Shown piece after piece: positions 2,032 to 50,960 of a DNA stretch of 64,000 bases. The position numbers were made by a program, and so were the translations under genes. Origin of the DNA: Dioscorea cayenensis subsp. rotundata (lineage: Eukaryota > Streptophyta > Magnoliopsida > Dioscoreales > Dioscoreaceae); NCBI RefSeq assembly GCF_009730915.1, contig NC_052471.1, positions 29,608,185 through 29,672,184 of the forward strand, in the 5' to 3' direction. A model generated the notes under the pieces. It ran no database searches and was not told the DNA's origin. It saw only the letters and a program-made list of their open reading frames with translations. How positions within the stretch are numbered: the stretch's first letter is position 1; every line of letters starts with the position of its first letter.

Positions 2032-4794
2032 ATGGCTGAGGTATTTCCTGATTTTTTTTTTTTCTATTGCGATTTTTTCTTCATTGTTTGAATTCAATGT
2101 GTTTTGATCTTCATTGATTTGAGTGATGAGAAACTTTTTGCAGGAGGGTCACAAGGTCACCTTGAATGTGTATGATCTCAGTCAAGGGCTTGCTCGCCAG
2201 CTTTCGATGTCATTCCTGGGCAAGGCAATTGAAGGCATATGGTAAGCATATTATCTTTGTATGACATTTTGATAGAATGATTGGTAATAATTGAACAAAT
2301 GTTCATAGATTAACTGTTAGTTAGTTTGGTATGAATTCTAAGAACAACAATGTGGAGATTGTGTTGTGTGGGAGAAGACTTTCAGCTCTTATTGATAATT
2401 TTGGATTATTCCCTTGCTTTGCTATTCAAATCTTTGACTGCTGATGCTAGAGAGTAGTTGAAATAAGACAGCTGCTTCATTTTTCTATTCGTACGGCCTA
2501 CACATAGTAATGCCAGAATTGATATTAAAATTGATCTTATAAGACTTCATGTAAGATGCTTTCTTGTCTTGTCTTTTTTTTTTGGGTGGAATACTTTGAA
2601 ATATGTGGCTCAAGACATGGCTTGTGTCTCTTTCTGAATTGTATACTTTTAAGATATAATTTTGAATTGTCATTGATATGGATGGGAAGATGGTGTGTTT
2701 GAATTCTCTCAAGGGGTGCTGATTGGCTTCTGCCAACTAAGAATGACTTGATCCCATGTATATGCATTTATTTAGTTGTATGAGTTAATGTATTTGACCT
2801 TAGTTTTTAAGTTGTTCAAATATAGTACGCTTTTATGTGGTAATTGTGTACATCATTTCATGATAAACCAAATCAAGTTGCTCTTAGTGGCCATTTTCTG
2901 TTGTTAGAGTGTAGTTTTTGATAGTACCTTGGCTTCATGATATTAAACTTAGAACAAGTTGGATTATATGCAAGAGCAATGGTTTATAGGTATGATTTTA
3001 AGCTGAAAGATCACCATTAGTGAGAGGAAAAGACCATGAATGACTTGATCCCATGTATATGCATTTATTTAGTTGTATGAGTTAATGTATTTGACCTTAG
3101 TTTTTTAAGTTGTTCAAATATAGTACGCTTTTATGTGGTAATTGTGTACATCATTTCATGATAAACCAAATCAAGTTGCTCTTAATGGCCATTTTCTGTT
3201 GTTAGAGTGTAGTTTTTGATAGTACCTTGGCTTCATGATATTAAACTTAGAACAAGTTGGATTATATGCAAGAGCAATGGCTTATAGGTATGATTTTAAG
3301 CTGAAAGTTCACCATTAGTGAGAGGAAAAGACCATGAACTGTTTTATGATTATTCAATTTAAACTAGAATCTTGCTTTGGTTGTAATCTATCTGTCTATC
3401 GATCAATCTATCTATAAGTATTTTTTTGGTCCTCTCTCAAAAACCAGATTGGTTTTGAGACCAACTTTTATCGACTTGTGGACCGTTCTATGTTTATATT
3501 ATGCATAGATATGTGAAATTTTAAGACTGTCCTGGCCTAAAGTTTACAATCAAATAGTAAATATGAAAATTTTAGTTGAATGCCCTGAACATTTCTACTA
3601 CTTAGGAAAAGACCATGAACTTTCTTATAATTATTCCATTTGAATCAGAATCTTGCTTTGGTTGTGACCAATATATATATTCTTACTTTGGTCCTTTCCC
3701 TTGGTTTTGAAACCAACTTTTCTTGACATTTGGACCTTGTAATGTTATGATATATGAGTGAAATTTTTAGGCTGTCCTTGCCTAAAATTAAAGAGGGCTA
3801 GAATATATATCCTGCCATGATGAGAAGTTTCTCAAATTTGCAGCAAGCTATCTGTTAATTTGTTCAAATACACTATCAGATAAGAAATATGAAATTTCAA
3901 TTGCCCTGAACATTTCTACTCTTTAGGACTAATGTGATAATGTTAAGCATTAATTTCTATTCCGGCTCTTATAAGAGGCAGTTAGTGTGATTATTTCCTC
4001 TTTGAAGATTTCATTGTGCAATCTTTTTCTTTAAACGAGGCCAGGCATACCGGCGTGGTGGTGTATGATGAGGAATACTACTTCTCTGGGGGAATTCAGC
4101 ATGATCCTGCTGGAAGAACACCCTATGGGACTCCAATTCATGTAGTCGAACTGGGATTCACACATATCCCCAAGGACGTGTTTAGGGAATATTTGCAAGA
4201 AATCAGCCCACGATACACTCCCGAATCCTACAATATCCTTACACACAACTGCAACAACTTCAGCAATGAGATTGCTCAATTCTTGGTCGGCATTAGCATC
4301 CCTGACTACATCCTCCAGCTCCCGAATGAAGTCATGAGCAGTCCAATGGGCGGTCTGATATGTAAGCTCTCTAAACTTTTCCGTCCAAAAAGTTTTGTTC
4401 ATACATTGTCTTATTATCTTCTATGTTTTCTGCAGTGCCAATGATCCAACGGCTCGATAACACACTTCGATCCGGCGCTGTTCCACAAGCTGCTCAGTTC
4501 ACACCATCACCTACCTTAGCTCAACCAACAACGAACAAACCTCCATCTGGAAAATCTGACAACCAAACCACAGAAGCAAAGAATGTCACCGTAAAGCCAG
4601 CAGCAGCAATTGGGAAGCAATCATCACTGTCAGCTGGTGATGCTCGGGCGAAGGTTCAGGAAGAGATTACGAGAGAGTTCGAGGCGATCATGGCCATGGG
4701 AACTCTGCGTGCAAGCGAGGCCGCTGCTCTTGCGACAAGAAGAATTATGCAGAAGTATGGTCATCTGAAAAGCACTTCAATGTCACAAGGTTAG
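2032..4794 (+). CDS. PPPDE (DeSI-like) putative thiol peptidase
   Basis: The predicted protein has 260 aa from four exons: 2032-2040, 2144-2241, 4045-4361 and 4436-4794. The PPPDE fold spans about residues 7-150. The presumed catalytic histidine is H37 in IWHTGVVVY and the presumed catalytic cysteine is C105 in THNCNNFSNE, so both active-site residues are present. Members of this family are papain-fold isopeptidases that remove SUMO or ubiquitin. The C-terminal 110 residues are low-complexity (Pro/Thr/Gln-rich) and end in a helix-like Ala/Arg-rich stretch. Exon 1 encodes only Met-Ala-Glu. A leader intron (about 1707-1979) precedes the start, and ATG 2032 is the first in-frame ATG of the spliced reading. 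Intron 2 is long (1.8 kb) and contains a tandem duplication. The family assignment is firm; the substrate is unknown. Confidence 0.9.
2741..3336. repeat. Tandem duplication (297-bp unit) in intron 2 of the PPPDE gene
   Basis: A unit starting gaatgacttgatcccatg occurs at 2741 and again at 3038, nearly identical over its whole length. The unit's end (aaagaccatgaa) and the following text (aatcttgctttggttg) recur in more diverged form near 3605-3665. Near-identity of the two main copies points to a recent event. Confidence 0.9.
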
Positions 4795-7088: not shown

Positions 7089-10000
7089 TACCTTTCTTGC
7101 ATTTGTTCACTTTTACGGGTTTGATTTCTTGCAGGCTTGATGTTTATATTTATGATTATCTCTTGAAACGGAACTTGCAAACCACTGCAAAGGCTTTCAT
7201 GGCTGAGGGGAAGGTTGCTGCGGATCCAGTAGGTAAAAACTTCATTGCTGTGTTATTTTGACTCAAAAATTTTTTTTTCATGCCCTATAAGTAAATTTCT
7301 CATTTTTTTCTATAAAAACTGTGTTTTTGATTTGATGCCTCATGTATGGAATTTGTCTGTGGTTTGTAGAAATGAGATGCAGTTGATTCTGTGGACGTGC
7401 CAAAAAGAACTTTTTTGATTGGCTTATTGTTGCTGGAGAATGAACTTTCTTGTCGTTCTCGTTCTCGAGTGTATCTTCCTAGTTGTAGATCTTATTCTTT
7501 TCATATAGTTTGGTTTTTTAGTGACGAGTGTTATTGAATTCTATTTTAGTAAGTAGATTGATGGATGAGATCAAAGAACAGTTAATTCTGTGTATGTGCC
7601 AAAAAGAACTGTTTTGATTGGCTTGTGGTTGCCAGAGAATGTACATTCTTGTCGTTCTCGAGTGTATCTTCCTAGTTGTAGATCTTATTCTTTTCATATA
7701 CTTTGGTTTTTCGGTTGTGAGTGTTATTGAATTCTGTTTTAGTAAGTAGATTGATGGATGACATCAAAGAACAGTTAATTCTGTGTATGTGCCAAAAAGA
7801 ACTGTTTTGATTGGCTTATTGTTGCTGGAGAATGAACTTTCTTGTTGTTCTTGAGTGTGTCTTCCTAGTTGTAGATCTTATTATTTTTATATAATTTGGT
7901 TTTTCAGTGATGAGTGTCATTGAATTCTATTTTAGTAACTAGATTGAACGGTAGAAATGATTCATTTGTTTGTTCTGTGTATTTATGTAAAGCAAACAAA
8001 GTTATAGCATGTCATGCAGTTGAGGAGCAAAATTCAATTCAATTTAAATATGGGAAGATAATTATGGCAATGAGTGATCATAGTTTACTGGAGAACTGTA
8101 AATAACGTTGCGCATGTTAAAAGATTCATTATAACCATGGTAAATATAGTTTTTGAGGATGCAGTTGTGCTTCTCATGTCCAACTTTCTGCAGAAACTTA
8201 TAACTTTTATTTCTTTGCTAAATAAAGAATCATTTGTGAGATGTACATACAGACATGATATTTCAGAAACTAGCTCACCTTTTTCCTTCAATGATTAGCA
8301 ATTGACGCACCAGGAGGTTTTCTCTTCGAGTGGTGGTCTGTCTTTTGGGATATCTTCATTGCAAGAACCAATGAAAAGCATTCTGAAGTTGCTGCTGCAT
8401 ATATAGAGGTATGGATTCTAATCACTTCTTTACCACTTAAAGGCTACTGTAATCTTTACTTTTTAAGTTGCATCATGATCTATCCTCTATTTGGCATACA
8501 GACTCAACAAATCAAGGCCAGGGAACAACAACAGTTGCAGATGCAGCAAATGCAGTTATTCCAGCAAAGACATGCTCAATTGCAGCGGACTAATTCTAAT
8601 CATCCTTCTCTAGCTGGGCCCATGAATGCAATTAATGCTGATGGTATCTTGGGGCAATCAACTGCTAGTGGCTTGGCTGCCAAAATCTACGAAGAACGTT
8701 TGAAGCAACCCCATCCAATGGATTCTGAGCCTCCCCCTCAACTTCTTGACGCCAGTAGGATGGCCCTTCTCAAGTCAGCTACTAGTCATGCAGGGTATGT
8801 TTTTTATAGTGTTCTTTTGAGCACTTAGAAGTGTGCAGTAGTTTCTGGTTGGTTGCAGATCATTTTACCTTTTGTGCATTTCACTTGACAGGCAGTTAGT
8901 CCAGGGCAATGCAGGCAGTGTATCTGCAGCTCTGCAGCAAATTCAAGCTCGAACTCAACAGGCAACTGTAGCATTCATGTTCAAATTTACTTTCTATTTG
9001 TGGGCAATCTGGTTACTATACAGCCTGGAGGCTCTCTTTCAAGTGTCATGATGTTTTACTGTACCTTTGTTACAGGATATCAAAACTGAGGGTAACTTGG
9101 GTGTAGCACAAAGATCATTGCCTATGGATCCCTCATCACTGTATGGGCAGGGCATCATTCAATCAAAATCTGGTTTACCTGGCAGCGGTGAGTTATCTTT
9201 TGTTTGCTTGTTACAGTAAATTTATTATCTGCTCTCTGGATTCCACGAACTGAAGAAAAACAGCCAGGATGTACTCAACAAAACTTTATGCTATTCCTTT
9301 ATATTGGTTGCCATATTCTGTGGGGTTTTCAGGTTTAAAAAGTCCTGTTACTATCAACAAAAACTTTATGCTATTCCTTTATATTGGTTGCCATATTCTG
9401 TGGGGTTTTCAGGTTTAAAAAGTCCTGTTACTATCATTAGTGCCTCTTTTGCAGGTATGAACCAGGGAGTCAGTGGTCTTCCACTTAAGGGCTGGCCTTT
9501 GACTGTAAGTTTAACAGAGATTATGATTTTGTCCTTTAATCTTTATGTACTTTGCTTGAGCAATATATTCTTTTATACAGGGAATTGACCAACTACGCCC
9601 GAGCTTAGGCCCTCAAGTACAGAAGCCATTTTTGTCAACACAAAATCAATTCCAGCTTTTGTCACCTCAGCAGCAGCATCAAATCATAGCACAAGCCCAA
9701 GCACAAGGAAGCCTTAATAGCTCATCTAATTATGGGGATATGGGAAGATTTAGAGCCATGCCAAGGGGTGGTTTGAATGGGAAGGATGGTCAACCCATTG
9801 GAAATGATGGATCAATTGGCTCACCAATGCAATCAAGTTCACCTAAGGTTAGACAGGACCAAGCAGAATATCTTTTGAAGGTCAGTTCTTTTAGAGTAAT
9901 CTTAATGTCTTTTTGCTTTATCTCGATACATTTATAGTTCATGAAATATTTGAAAATCCTCAACGCTGGATTTTCATATATTCAGAAATGAGTCTGAAGT

Positions 10001-21924: not shown

Positions 21925-22185
21925 CATGAAATCCACCTTATATTCGTTTAAACAGTACTATGGACAGTACTTAAACCTAGGAACATTTTGTGAGCATTAC
22001 TGCTATTGTACACATAGCAAGGTTTCTACCCTGCATCTGCTCTAGGGATGGGCATGGGGCGGGGATGAAATCCACCTTATATTCGTTTAAACAGTACCAT
22101 GGACAGTACCTAAACCCAGGAACATTTTGTGAGCATTACTGCTATTGTACACATAGCAAGGTTTCTACCCTGCATCTGCTATTCT
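21925..22185. repeat. Tandem duplication (about 140-bp unit) with a transposon-end-like junction
   Basis: A unit from gatgaaatccaccttata to ctaccctgcatctgct is present twice (about 21926-22042 and 22065-22181) with only a few differences. Between them lies agggatgggcatggggcgg, resembling the terminal sequence of a widespread plant hAT-like non-autonomous family. Confidence 0.8.
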
Positions 22186-23480: not shown

Positions 23481-23695
23481 ACATACTTGTTTTTACTTTC
23501 CACCCCTTGGGGATTAGTGAAATTATTTGGCATACTTGTTTTATTTTACCTTCCACCCCTTGAAGATTAGTGAAATTATTTGGCATACTTGTTTTATTTT
23601 ACCTTCCACCCCTTGAAGATTAGTGAAATTATTTGACATATTTGTTTTTTTTTTTACCTTCCACCACTTGGGGAATAGTGAAATTATTTGGTACA
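23481..23695. repeat. Minisatellite, four copies of about a 58-bp unit
   Basis: The phrase ttccaccccttg...gattagtgaaattatttgg is repeated four times in direct orientation (starting about 23498, 23551, 23607 and 23658). Copies two and three are almost identical; the fourth is more diverged. Confidence 0.9.
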
Positions 23696-29270: not shown

Positions 29271-29525
29271 CATTGGGTAATCAACTTGGGTCACAGCGAT
29301 TTAGACCGGGATATGATTATTTTACATTTTGAATAGTTATTGGGTTTCAATAAAATATTTTTTATTACTACATATGTAATATTTTACAATATTTACTTTT
29401 TTTAATTTATCTTAATAAATAATCCATATTTAAAGTCCTTCTCTATTAAATAAATAATTTTTTAGTAGTTGTGTGAAATTTTAGTATTATAATATAATTA
29501 AATAAAATAGTAATGAGTTACACTT

Positions 29526-29604
29526 GGGGTGATGGCGCAGGTGGTTAGCGCGTAGGGTTCTGCGTGAGCTTCTGAGGTCGAGAGTTCGATTTTCTCTCAC
29601 CCCG
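29526..29604 (+). tRNA. tRNA-Met(elongator)-derived tRNA-like sequence, probable pseudogene
   Basis: The acceptor halves ggggtga and tcacccc pair perfectly. An intact A-box-like tggcgcaggtggttagcgcg forms a D arm with GCGC/GCGC, and the T arm gagagttcgattttctc follows with a B-box-like core. The flanks match plant elongator tRNA-Met (ggtggcgcag, gcgtagg, tgaggtcgagagttcga), but the anticodon region is altered and no CAT anticodon sits in a proper loop. A T8 run seven bases downstream could terminate Pol III. It could also be the head of a tRNA-derived SINE. Confidence 0.6.
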
Positions 29605-29850
29605 ATTCATTTTTTTTATTTTATTTTTTATATTTAATATAAAAAATATTTATAAATGAACTGTCCACGATGAGCCTCTCTGATCCCAATACTTTATTTT
29701 TTTAATTTTTAATTTTTATGTTTAATATTTAATATTTTTTTTATATAAAGTTATAAATGAATGATGAGCCTCTCTGGAGTTTATATATAAATAAACGGTT
29801 CATGATGAGCCTCGATCTGAAGATTAAAAACCCAAAAAGATAAAGCCCTG
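29605..29850. repeat. AT-rich spacer with a thrice-repeated gatgagcctc phrase
   Basis: The phrase cgatgagcctctct or close variants occurs at about 29670, 29763 and 29800, separated by poly-T/TTTAATAT sequence and preceded by ataaatgaa-type text. It looks like a degenerate tandem array directly upstream of the plastid protein gene. Confidence 0.6.
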
Positions 29851-32194: not shown

Positions 32195-34384
32195 CTAATT
32201 GATATGAATTAGACTTTGTCCGGGCTCTTTGACAACACCATGATTCTTGCTTTCTTCTCGGACTCTATAAACATCATCCCACATCTCGGCTGATGCATAA
32301 ACATTAGCAAGTGCGACATAAGTCTCTGGAGTTTGTCGCTTTCTCTCAACCATCATCTTGGCCACATTGCTTCCAATCGTAACATTCCCATGTAACTCAC
32401 ATCCCCCGAGCATTGCTCCCCAAACATCACCATCTTCTTCATTGATTTCTTTCAACTCGGTTATCAATTTCCAAGCTTCATCAAGCTTCCCGGATCTTAC
32501 CAACAAATCAATCACACAACTGTAGTGATAGCTAGTCGGAGCAATCTTGTACTCATTTCTCATTAAACTGAAGTAATGCAGGCCTTCATCAACCAAACCA
32601 CAGTGACTACAAGCACTCAGAATTGCTACGAAAGTCACTTCATTTGGCCTGAAACCAGTGGTCATCATTTGCTCTAATAGTTCAATGGCTTGATGACCAA
32701 GTCCATGAGCAGAGCAACCACTGATCATCGATGTCCAGGTGATAACATTTTTATCCGCCATTCTGTCGAAAACTCTCTGTGCGTAGTTTAGATTGCCGGA
32801 CTTAGAATACATATCAACAAGACCTGTTTGTACAACCACATGCTCCGTTGCAGTCCTGAGTATATGCCCATGTATCTGCTTGCCCAGGCGCAATGCAGTA
32901 AGACTACTGCATGCGCCTAAAGCCGACACCAAAGTGAAGCGGTTACCGTGAATTGATGACTTGGCTTCGTTATATAACCTTGCAAACAACCTCAGCCCTT
33001 CTCCGGGCAATCCAGCTTGAATGTACCCGGAAATCATGGCTGTCCATGAGATCACATTCTTCTCAGGCATCTCATTAAATAACTCAATTGCCTTTGCTAG
33101 CAAACCATTGTGTGTGTAGCCTCTAATCATCGCATTCCAATGTGTGATGTATCTTTCTGGCAGCATATCAAAAACAACTTGAGCTTGTTCCATGCCGGAG
33201 CACCCGCTGTACATGTCGATCAAGGCACAATCAACAACATGGTTAATTCGAGAGACACCAGTTGTGACAATGAGACCATGAATTTGTCTACCAAGATGAA
33301 GAAACAGGAGATTCGAGCAAGCAGCGAGGATGGAACCAACCACACTGGGATCAACAACGATCATTTTAACAAAATCATTGCCGGGATGAATGATCCTAAG
33401 AGCATCTTCATATAGCTCATTGAAGACATACCCTTTGACCATCATAAGCTTTAAAATCATTGAGTCTTCTTCTTCTTCTTCTTCTTCTTCTTCTTCTTCA
33501 ATGTCCTCTATTGCCCTCTCAGCCGCCCGGACATCACCACACCGGAAGTACATGTTTGCCAATGAGCTTGAAACAGCAGAATCACAGCCAAACCCAGCAA
33601 CCACAAGAAAGGCATGAACTTGAACACCTGATTGCCAATCACTAAGCGCAGCGCACGCCGTCAGAGCGCTCGGTATAGTGAATCCATCAGCAGCCACTTC
33701 AGTCTCCACACACCTCATTCTATAAAACATCTCCAATGCAAGAGCACCCTTTCCAGCATTGGCATAGCCTGAAAGGAAACAATTTCCAAGTTACCACATT
33801 TCTCTCAGGCATTTCATCAAACACCTTGTGGGATTCATCATACCTGAAATCAATGAATTCCAAGTGATCACATTTCTCTCAAGCATTTCATCAAAGACCT
33901 TGTGGGAGGAATCCAAGTCGCCGGATTTAGCATACCTGAAAGGAAATGAATTCCAAGTTACCACATTTCAGTGAGGCATTTCATCAAACATCTTAAAGAA
34001 TATAGCATACATGTTGACAATGGACGTTTGGACGATGATGTTGGGATGGAGGAGACCGCGGGTGAGGAGGAGAGCGTGGAGAGAACGGGAGAGGAGGGGG
34101 TTGGAGAGGGCGGCGGCGGCGCGGCCGGCTGAGGAGGCAGCGAAAGGGTTGGGATGGGGCATGAGGGAGAAGAGTTGGAGGGCGGGGAGAGGATGGTGGG
34201 AATTGGCGTAGGCGGAGATGATGGAGGTCCATAGAGGAGGGTCTCGGGCGGGGCTGGGGATCTCGTCGAAGAGGCGGCGGGCGGCTGCGAGGGAGGCGGC
34301 GCCGGCGTAGGATTGGAGAAGTTGTGTGACGATTACGCGGTTGTGGTCGAGGCCGAGCTTGAGAAGACGAGCGTGGGATCTCAT
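32195..34384 (-). CDS. Pentatricopeptide repeat protein, PLS class with E domain
   Basis: The best model has three exons on the minus strand, 34011-34384, 33844-33935 and 32195-33768, giving 679 aa. It carries tandem PLS-type PPR motifs (for example YITHWNAMIRGYTHNGLLAK, EKNVISWTAMISGYIQAG, DKNVITWTSMISGCSAHG) and a C-terminal E region (DVWGAMLGGCELHGN...) without a DYW domain. Such proteins act in RNA editing or processing in organelles, usually recruiting a DYW partner in trans. A run of Glu (DIEEEEEEEEEEE) from a GAA repeat interrupts the linker near the middle. Members of this family are usually intronless; here two 75-nt stretches (34010-33936 and 33843-33769) contain in-frame stops but have GT...AG ends, and their removal restores a continuous PPR motif. 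If they are not spliced, this is a pseudogene. No obvious transit peptide precedes MRSHARLLKLG, so the N-terminus may be incomplete. Confidence 0.8.
33461..33500. repeat. (TTC)n / Glu-coding microsatellite inside the PPR gene
   Basis: About twelve trinucleotide units encode consecutive Glu residues on the minus strand in the PPR reading frame. Length polymorphism would add or remove residues without changing frame. Confidence 0.9.
33769..34010 (-). repeat. Tandem triplication of a PPR segment forming two intron-like units
   Basis: Three direct copies lie side by side: 34010-33936 (75 nt), 33935-33844 (92 nt) and 33843-33769 (75 nt). Each begins GTATG and ends TTTCAG on the minus strand, and each contains tttgatgaaatgc and acttgga. 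The middle copy encodes a good PPR segment (DSSHKVFDEMLERNVITWNS). The outer two match intron boundaries and carry in-frame stops. Confidence 0.8.
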
Positions 34385-36171: not shown

Positions 36172-37136
36172 GTTGTTCCAGATAGAGATTGGCAAACTAA
36201 ATTTCATTCAAGTGGAGTTTTAGATAGATATAAATATATTGAAGGCCTAATTCTTTTTCTGTCTGAACCAAAAAGTTAATAACAAACCAATTTATAGTTC
36301 TAGGTGAGAAACTTAACCAGGTAGATTCTTCTCAATAAATGTGGCACTTGCAGATGTAGCTCCAACCACTTACAGCCAAATTTTGCATCTGAGACTTTAA
36401 CTGAACAAACCCTAAAAAGGTTCTAATTAGCTCTAGACAACAGAAATTAATCATAGATCGATGAAACCCATAACACTTATGTCTCTACTTCGATGATTGA
36501 TTGGTTGTTCCAGATAGATGATTCTGAACTAAATGTCATTCTAGTGAAGTTTTAAATCTAAATAATTGTACTGAAGGTCTAATTATTTTTTTCTATCTGA
36601 ACCAAAAGTTAATAACAAGCCAATTTATAGTTCTAGTGAAACTTAACCAGGTAGATTCTTCTTCAATATATGTGGCACATGCAGACCTAACTCCAACTAC
36701 TTGCAGCCAATATTTGCATCTTAACCTTTAACGGAACAAACCCGAAAGTTCTAATTAGCTCTAGACAACAGAAATTAATCATAAATTGATGAAATCCATA
36801 ACAAGAGAAAGAAAAACTTATGTCTCAACTTCGATGATTGATTGGTTGTTCCAGATAGATAATGCTAAACTGAATGTCATTCTAGTGAAGTTTTAAATCA
36901 AGGTAATTATATTGAAGGCCTAATTATTTTTTTTCTATCTGAACCAAAAGTTAACAATAAACCAATTTATAGTTCTAATGAAACTGAACCAGGTAGATTC
37001 TTCTTCAATATATGTGGCACTTCAAGATGTAGCCAAAGGTTGCACCTGAAACTTTAACTGGAGCAAACCCGAAGTTCTAATTAACTCCAGACAAAAGAAA
37101 TTAATCATACATTGATGAAATCCCTACTTTGATTAT
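36172..37136. repeat. Tandem triplication (about 335-bp unit) downstream of the PB1 gene
   Basis: The phrase gttgttccagatag begins copies at 36172, 36504 and 36845 (periods 332 and 341). Each copy continues through gaaggcctaatt/gaaggtctaatt, accaatttatagttcta, accaggtagattcttc and gacaacagaaattaatcat. The third copy is shortened. The array lies about 450 bp beyond the PB1 stop codon. No protein of known type is encoded. Confidence 0.92.
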
Positions 37137-50620: not shown

Positions 50621-50630
50621 AAAATAAAGA

Positions 50631-50960
50631 GAAGAGAAAAATCAATATCTTTTTATACATTGATTTGTAGATAAATTAAAAAAGAAACAAACCCAAGAAA
50701 AAGAATAAGGAAAAGCATGAAAACTATATATATATATTTACACATATGAGAAGAGAAAGATCACTATCTTCTTATACATTGATTTGTTGATATATAAAGA
50801 AAGAAACAAACACAAGAAGAATTAGTAGAAATGATGATAAAAAACTTTATATATGTAAGAAGAGAAAGATCACTATCTTTTTATACATTGATTTGTAAAC
50901 AAAGAAAGAAACAAGCACTAGCACAAGCACAAGAACAAGAAGAAGAAATCAAGCATGATA
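50631..50960. repeat. Tandem triplication (about 115-bp unit) below the CLE gene
   Basis: The phrase gaagagaaagatcactatct (or a near variant), followed by atacattgatttgt and aaagaaacaaacacaag, starts at about 50631, 50749 and 50859. It lies just beyond the CLE stop codon, probably in or next to its 3' untranslated region. Confidence 0.85.

Follow-up and report, generated by a model that had tools for sequence, protein, structure and literature searches.

Intron gain by tandem duplication is already known, with in vivo support described in a 2012 review (PMC3443670) and with a plant case (PMC4974935), in whose account recently gained introns with a known source sequence are few. PMC5084403 puts the share of PPR genes without introns at about 80% for Arabidopsis and rice and at 78.6% for foxtail millet. 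Here, we describe a PPR gene, of the class that encodes organelle-RNA-binding proteins in plants, in a 64,000-nt stretch of Dioscorea cayenensis subsp. rotundata DNA (the window, to which all coordinates refer), in which two short segments, C1 and C3, flank a related segment, M. By our estimate, the chance is a little better than even that the gene is functional, belongs to the PLS class of PPR genes and contains two short introns derived from its own coding sequence, and it may represent a possible new variant of the known process.

Among the closest described cases is that of ATP2A1 (Hellsten 2011, as related in PMC4974935 and PMC3443670), which the PPR gene would resemble in having an intron that was copied locally from coding sequence and whose removal leaves the protein unchanged. 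Unlike ATP2A1 as related there, the ancestral unit of the PPR gene would have AGGT at neither end, the ends of the unit are the ends of the intron, and the introns are predicted from sequence. The borders of the unit in the joined exons are CAT|GT and CAG|GC, and AG|GT is present only where copies meet; this departs from the Rogers model, in which a duplicated AGGT gives both splice sites. The potato RdRp intron (PMC4974935) likewise concerns a plant gene, a tandem duplication and a donor that was not drawn from a duplicated AGGT. In the potato gene, as described, branch site and acceptor came from an existing intron and the evidence includes RNA reads and phylogeny, whereas the splice signals of the PPR gene would come from coding sequence and the case is known from genomic sequence alone.

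Similar processes have been described outside plants. The introns of the fission yeast genes SPOG_01682 and SOCG_00815 (24-nt tandem repeats) are described as built from a repeated coding unit that contains AGGC sites (PMC3629103); those repeats are short, whereas the PPR gene would have one motif-sized unit per intron. Novel Drosophila introns are attributed in PMC2891723 to exon tandem duplication at AG/GY proto-splice sites followed by intronization, and the same study discusses two non-independent introns from one duplicated region, both of which would find a parallel here; in contrast to the Drosophila introns as reported, both copies in the PPR gene are still readable beside their source. 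Intronization, named in PMC3443670 and PMC4974935, turns coding letters into intron and would fit C1 if C1 was an original motif. It differs from what is seen in C3, which is out of register and so appears to be a copy rather than an original motif. A PPR intron made from the gene's own repeat was not found in the literature searched, outside of which most subscription papers lie. The source exon and two derived units stand side by side in this gene. Should the units prove to be spliced out, the gene would be an example from plants of splice signals drawn from coding sequence and would suggest repeat-coding genes as places of intron gain.

Gene structure and predicted protein

The PPR gene lies on the minus strand from an ATG at 34384 to a stop ending at 32195 and is open apart from C1 and C3, which confirms the first-pass annotation in that only the C1-M-C3 stretch breaks the frame. 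Exon 1 (34011..34384, 374 nt) has an in-frame TAA immediately 5' of its ATG and the 3' end ...CAACAT. It is followed by C1, predicted intron 1 (33936..34010, 75 nt; CAT|GTATGC ... TTTCCTTTCAG|GTATGC), with an in-frame TGA at 33970, and by M, exon 2 (33844..33935, 92 nt), which carries the PPR motif YAKSGDLDSSHKVFDEMLERNVITWNSLISG. C3, predicted intron 2 (33769..33843, 75 nt; CAG|GTATGA ... TTTCCTTTCAG|GCTATG), contains a TAA at 33793 in the gene's frame. Exon 3 (32195..33768, 1574 nt) encodes more PPR motifs and a C-terminal E motif (PF01535, PF13041, PF20431) and ends in TAG. Read unspliced, the gene contains two premature stops, those at 33970 and 33793. The earlier description of the outer units as exactly 75 nt long, interrupted by in-frame stops, beginning GTATG and ending TTTCAG agrees with the sequence throughout.

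Removal of C1 and C3 as GT-AG introns joins exons of 374, 92 and 1574 nt into 2040 nt, or 679 aa and a stop, with no internal stop codon and with PPR motifs unbroken across both joints; the exon lengths and the continuous motif proposed in the first-pass annotation were thus reproduced. In the conceptually spliced protein, Pfam families PF01535 (2.5e-65), PF13041 (5.7e-53) and PF20431, E_motif (3.1e-11), were detected. The predicted gene product is a plant PLS-class PPR protein of the E subgroup, with a PPR array followed by the E motif. An in-frame GAA repeat at 33465-33499 encodes a run of glutamates within the protein.

Alternative ways of keeping the frame were enumerated and comprised 22 single introns (40-400 nt) and 61 GT-AG pairs (within 34060-33720, introns of 60-160 nt). 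Among the 61 pairs, only C1 with C3 yields the complete motif NMYAKSGDLDSSHKVFDEMLERNVITWNSLISGYANAG (list read by eye). Retention of C1 ends the protein at codon 139, and skipping of M shifts the frame.

Splice-like signals

C1 and C3 both begin GTATG and end TTTCCTTTCAG, where M ends TTGATTTCAG at the equivalent place. The pyrimidine tract reads TTTCC in C1 and C3 versus TTGA in M, and about 22 nt before the 3' end both outer units have TAAC, where M has TCAC instead. The TAAC at 33957..33960 in C1 and that at 33790..33793 in C3 (both minus strand), each with its second A 22 nt before the acceptor, are putative branch sites. Splice sites were ranked with plant matrices over the 126 AGs and 123 GTs of the gene, and donors also by U1 pairing energy. 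By the matrices, the best three of the 126 acceptors are the ends of C3 (rank 1), M and C1 (rank 3), and the best of the 123 donors are 33843 (C3, rank 1) and 33935, the start of M, which has no role as a donor in the favoured model; these two donors tie for third by U1 pairing energy. The C1 donor at 34010 (CAT|GTATGC), on which the full-length protein depends, is weak, ranking 10th of 123 by matrix and 70th by U1 energy. Both units show U2-type intron anatomy, with GT-AG ends, a pyrimidine tract, a branch-like site and a spliceable length, judged by a branch consensus, matrices and a minimum length, and with the first donor weak. C3 is the stronger predicted intron, being out of frame and ranking first in the gene for both donor and acceptor, and C1, which lies in frame, is the weaker. 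The claim is firmer for C3 than for C1.

Of 176085 units of 60-150 nt in the PPR coding sequence, 682 (0.39%) have exact GT..AG ends. With all rotations allowed, some precise GT-AG removal would be possible after 26% of random tandem duplications in this sequence, and the duplication route therefore needs no rare luck. The first-pass annotation had traced the splice sites to an AG|GT junction carried by the duplicated exon, which does not hold at the CAT|GT and CAG|GC borders. The sole AGGT inside M (33897..33900, minus strand) does not serve as a splice site in the model by which the PPR motif is restored, and the classical route through it, AAG|GTCTTT (33900-33897), was rejected, since a join of M to C3 at this site would put the 3' end of C3 out of frame.

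Similarity among C1, M and C3

The three copies were also recovered independently, in register, as repeat family D1. Local alignment scores were 83 (C1-C3), 82 (C3-M) and 60 (C1-M), compared with maxima of 20-24 among 300 shuffles of each pair, so that the outer units are, as stated earlier, still recognisable as relatives of the exon. The remaining coding sequence scored 22 against C1, 34 against C3 and 41 against M, with shuffle maxima of 28, 25 and 31. An assembly artefact was rejected as the source of the copies, which differ by 15-20%. C1 and C3 differ at 14 of 75 positions and, in the alignment of the 75-nt units to the 92-nt M that had been suggested previously, C1 and M differ at 15 of 74 and C3 and M at 11 of 74; these distances are based on about 75 columns. 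PPR motifs are mutually alike, and several other genes match the C3 core at 91% over 43 nt.

C1 and C3 are each a net 17 nt shorter than M (18 missing, 1 extra), the exact site of the 18-nt gap in the C1 alignment being uncertain. Relative to M they have six substitutions in common, together with the extra T and the 18-nt shortening. Some of the shared substitutions may be ancestral and lost by M; P and V are usual here and present in many loci. The CC in the pyrimidine tract, the extra T and the shortening look like derived states. Over the 3' 59 columns, the smallest difference is that between C1 and C3 (7/59 versus 10/58 and 9/58), and with all columns counted the nearest relative of C3 is M. 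Private changes number nine in C1 and five in C3, and seven of the nine in C1 fall at codon positions 1-2, so there is no sign of coding constraint in C1.

Register and other PPR loci

The shared core TTTGATGAAATG is found at 33988, 33895 and 33821. The cores of C1 and M are 93 nt apart in one frame, the normal PPR spacing, and those of M and C3 are 74 nt apart, out of register. Another PPR gene of the genome, L006, aligns without gaps over C1 and M (98/144 nt; 39/56 in the C1 part, 59/88 in the M part), and its aligned sequence reads as two ordinary neighbouring motifs. At least two further genomic places match nearly the C1-M span at 71-72%.

Two genome searches gave at least 32 and at least 23 matches, with very common words skipped. 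In the search with C3 (at least 23 matches), C1 (76.1 bits) and M (74.3 bits) came next after C3 itself among the matches listed, and the other 20 listed had 64.4 bits or less, mainly over C3 positions 17-60. The 25 loci examined outside the PPR gene, drawn from the matches of both searches, contained 20 distinct matched sequences, 17 of them in open frames longer than 1 kb, and the frame continued at least 60 nt beyond the match in 19 of the 20. Matches at L003, L005 and L022 lie within short frames and look decayed. L003 and L020 share ISGYCSNECYL, which lies in a 1905-nt open frame in L020 and in a 150-nt frame in L003; the pair may illustrate how a decayed PPR copy looks in this genome.

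None of the 25 loci resembled a further copy of the predicted intron, and an introner or transposon origin was not seen among the loci examined from the matches listed. Another PPR gene as the donor of C3 was also rejected, the best score among the 25 loci being 72 versus 82 for M and 83 for C1, though such a gene could still have supplied the core. The idea that PPR borders are usually acceptor-like was discarded as well: TCA-GG occurs at 4 of 25 distinct PPR borders in the loci examined, and is available but not the rule.

Proposed origin and alternative explanations

We infer the following mechanism and order of events. One 31-codon PPR motif would have been duplicated in tandem between breaks at two repeat borders, ISG|YA and NM|YA, joining TTTCAGG to TATGC. 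This join would have created CAG|GTATG because it has one C fewer than the in-register join. The sequence coding for 'LIS' would already have been acceptor-like (ATTGATTTCAG|G), allowing precise removal of one copy as a GT-AG intron. Shortened by 18 nt and enriched in pyrimidines towards its 3' end, this intron unit would then have been copied to the opposite flank of the exon, either through a further local duplication with deletion or through intron copying. The homology of intron to adjacent exon that marks tandem duplication is present, and in C1 it could be that of neighbouring PPR motifs. A wider generalization, which we regard as doubtful, is that PPR arrays can breed introns: the border TTTCAG|G(Y) would serve as a ready acceptor, unequal exchange between neighbours would give a motif-sized copy, loss of a single base at the join would give CAG|GTATG, and precise removal as an intron would immediately rescue the out-of-frame repeat, which could then be copied locally in its intron form.

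The first-pass annotation had proposed two introns born by tandem duplication. Its derivation of both outer units from exon sequence stands; separate births of the two are very improbable. Each unit does adjoin M and has private changes (nine and five), as two independent duplications with one intron each would leave, but C1 and C3 share their length, the extra T and the CC of the pyrimidine tract, which suggests that one intron-like unit was copied, and they are the closest pair over the 3' columns. Nor is duplication the sole reading of C1, as its register with M is normal, like that in L006, and C1 may therefore not have come from M by duplication. It may instead have begun as an original in-register motif that decayed, losing six codons and gaining the TGA, and that was either intronized or is kept in the mRNA as a recent nonsense mutation, with C3, which looks like a copy, the only spliced one. 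The 93-nt spacing (versus 74 nt from M to C3), the ungapped alignment to the two ordinary motifs of L006, the single in-frame stop of C1 and the weakness of its donor all agree with such a history. We nevertheless consider it unlikely: C1 matches C3 in length and in having the extra T and the CC, 25 codons do not suffice for a motif, seven of its nine private changes lie outside third positions, and its acceptor is the third best in the gene. Motif register also arises by duplication, so register does not decide the origin of C1 by itself.

A young pseudogene or damaged allele, in which out-of-frame copying of a PPR repeat was followed by decay of the copies and loss of translation, with GT and AG ends due to chance, would account for the two premature stops and the weak first donor. 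Furthermore, no obvious long targeting leader precedes MRSHARLL (authors' judgement), and the three other PPR matches in short frames indicate that decay happens in this genome. Neutral decay was simulated (2000 simulations each) over the range of 0.083-0.108 substitutions per site obtained by halving the K80 distances C3-M and C1-C3, and yielded 5.1-6.5 expected stops in the joined coding sequence, where none is present (P 0.006 and 0.002). For the difference between C1 and C3 the 95% interval is 0.107-0.28, near the lower end of which P is about 0.04. This result, against loss of translation, suggests that the PPR gene stayed alive long with C1 and C3 present, and does not exclude a recent stop in a C1 that is otherwise in frame. 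Together with unit ends that are exactly GT..AG, as in only 0.39% of placements, it makes a pseudogene quite unlikely. If, as favoured here, the gene has two introns derived from its own coding sequence, the second could have come by intron transposition, an excised intron being inserted exactly at AG|G of the mRNA and returned to the gene via cDNA. In favour of that route, the unit runs exactly from GT to AG and carries no flanking exon letters at ISG|Y, but local duplication of unit and exon followed by deletion between TTTCAG or GTATG repeats yields the same product, and according to the 2012 review (PMC3443670) reverse splicing had been demonstrated solely at an intron's original site, in non-physiological conditions. 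Transposition is very improbable.

Other features of the window

An Rfam scan of the whole window gave no match at the gathering score. A bacterial-mode scan called a tRNA-Arg (anticodon gcg) at 29525-29605, which may be false. An 80-nt tandem duplication at 9275-9436, 98% alike and with TTTTCAG|GTTT in each copy, seems intronic and is a possible seed of a new splice site. The surrounding gene is putatively LEUNIG-like; Pfam assigned no family to the two pieces of it that were searched. Six more tandem arrays with periods of 53-341 nt lie in the 64 kb, at 2741-3338, 7380-7947, 21926-22180, 23491-23691, 36172-37020 and 50624-50918, and local duplication may be frequent in the window.
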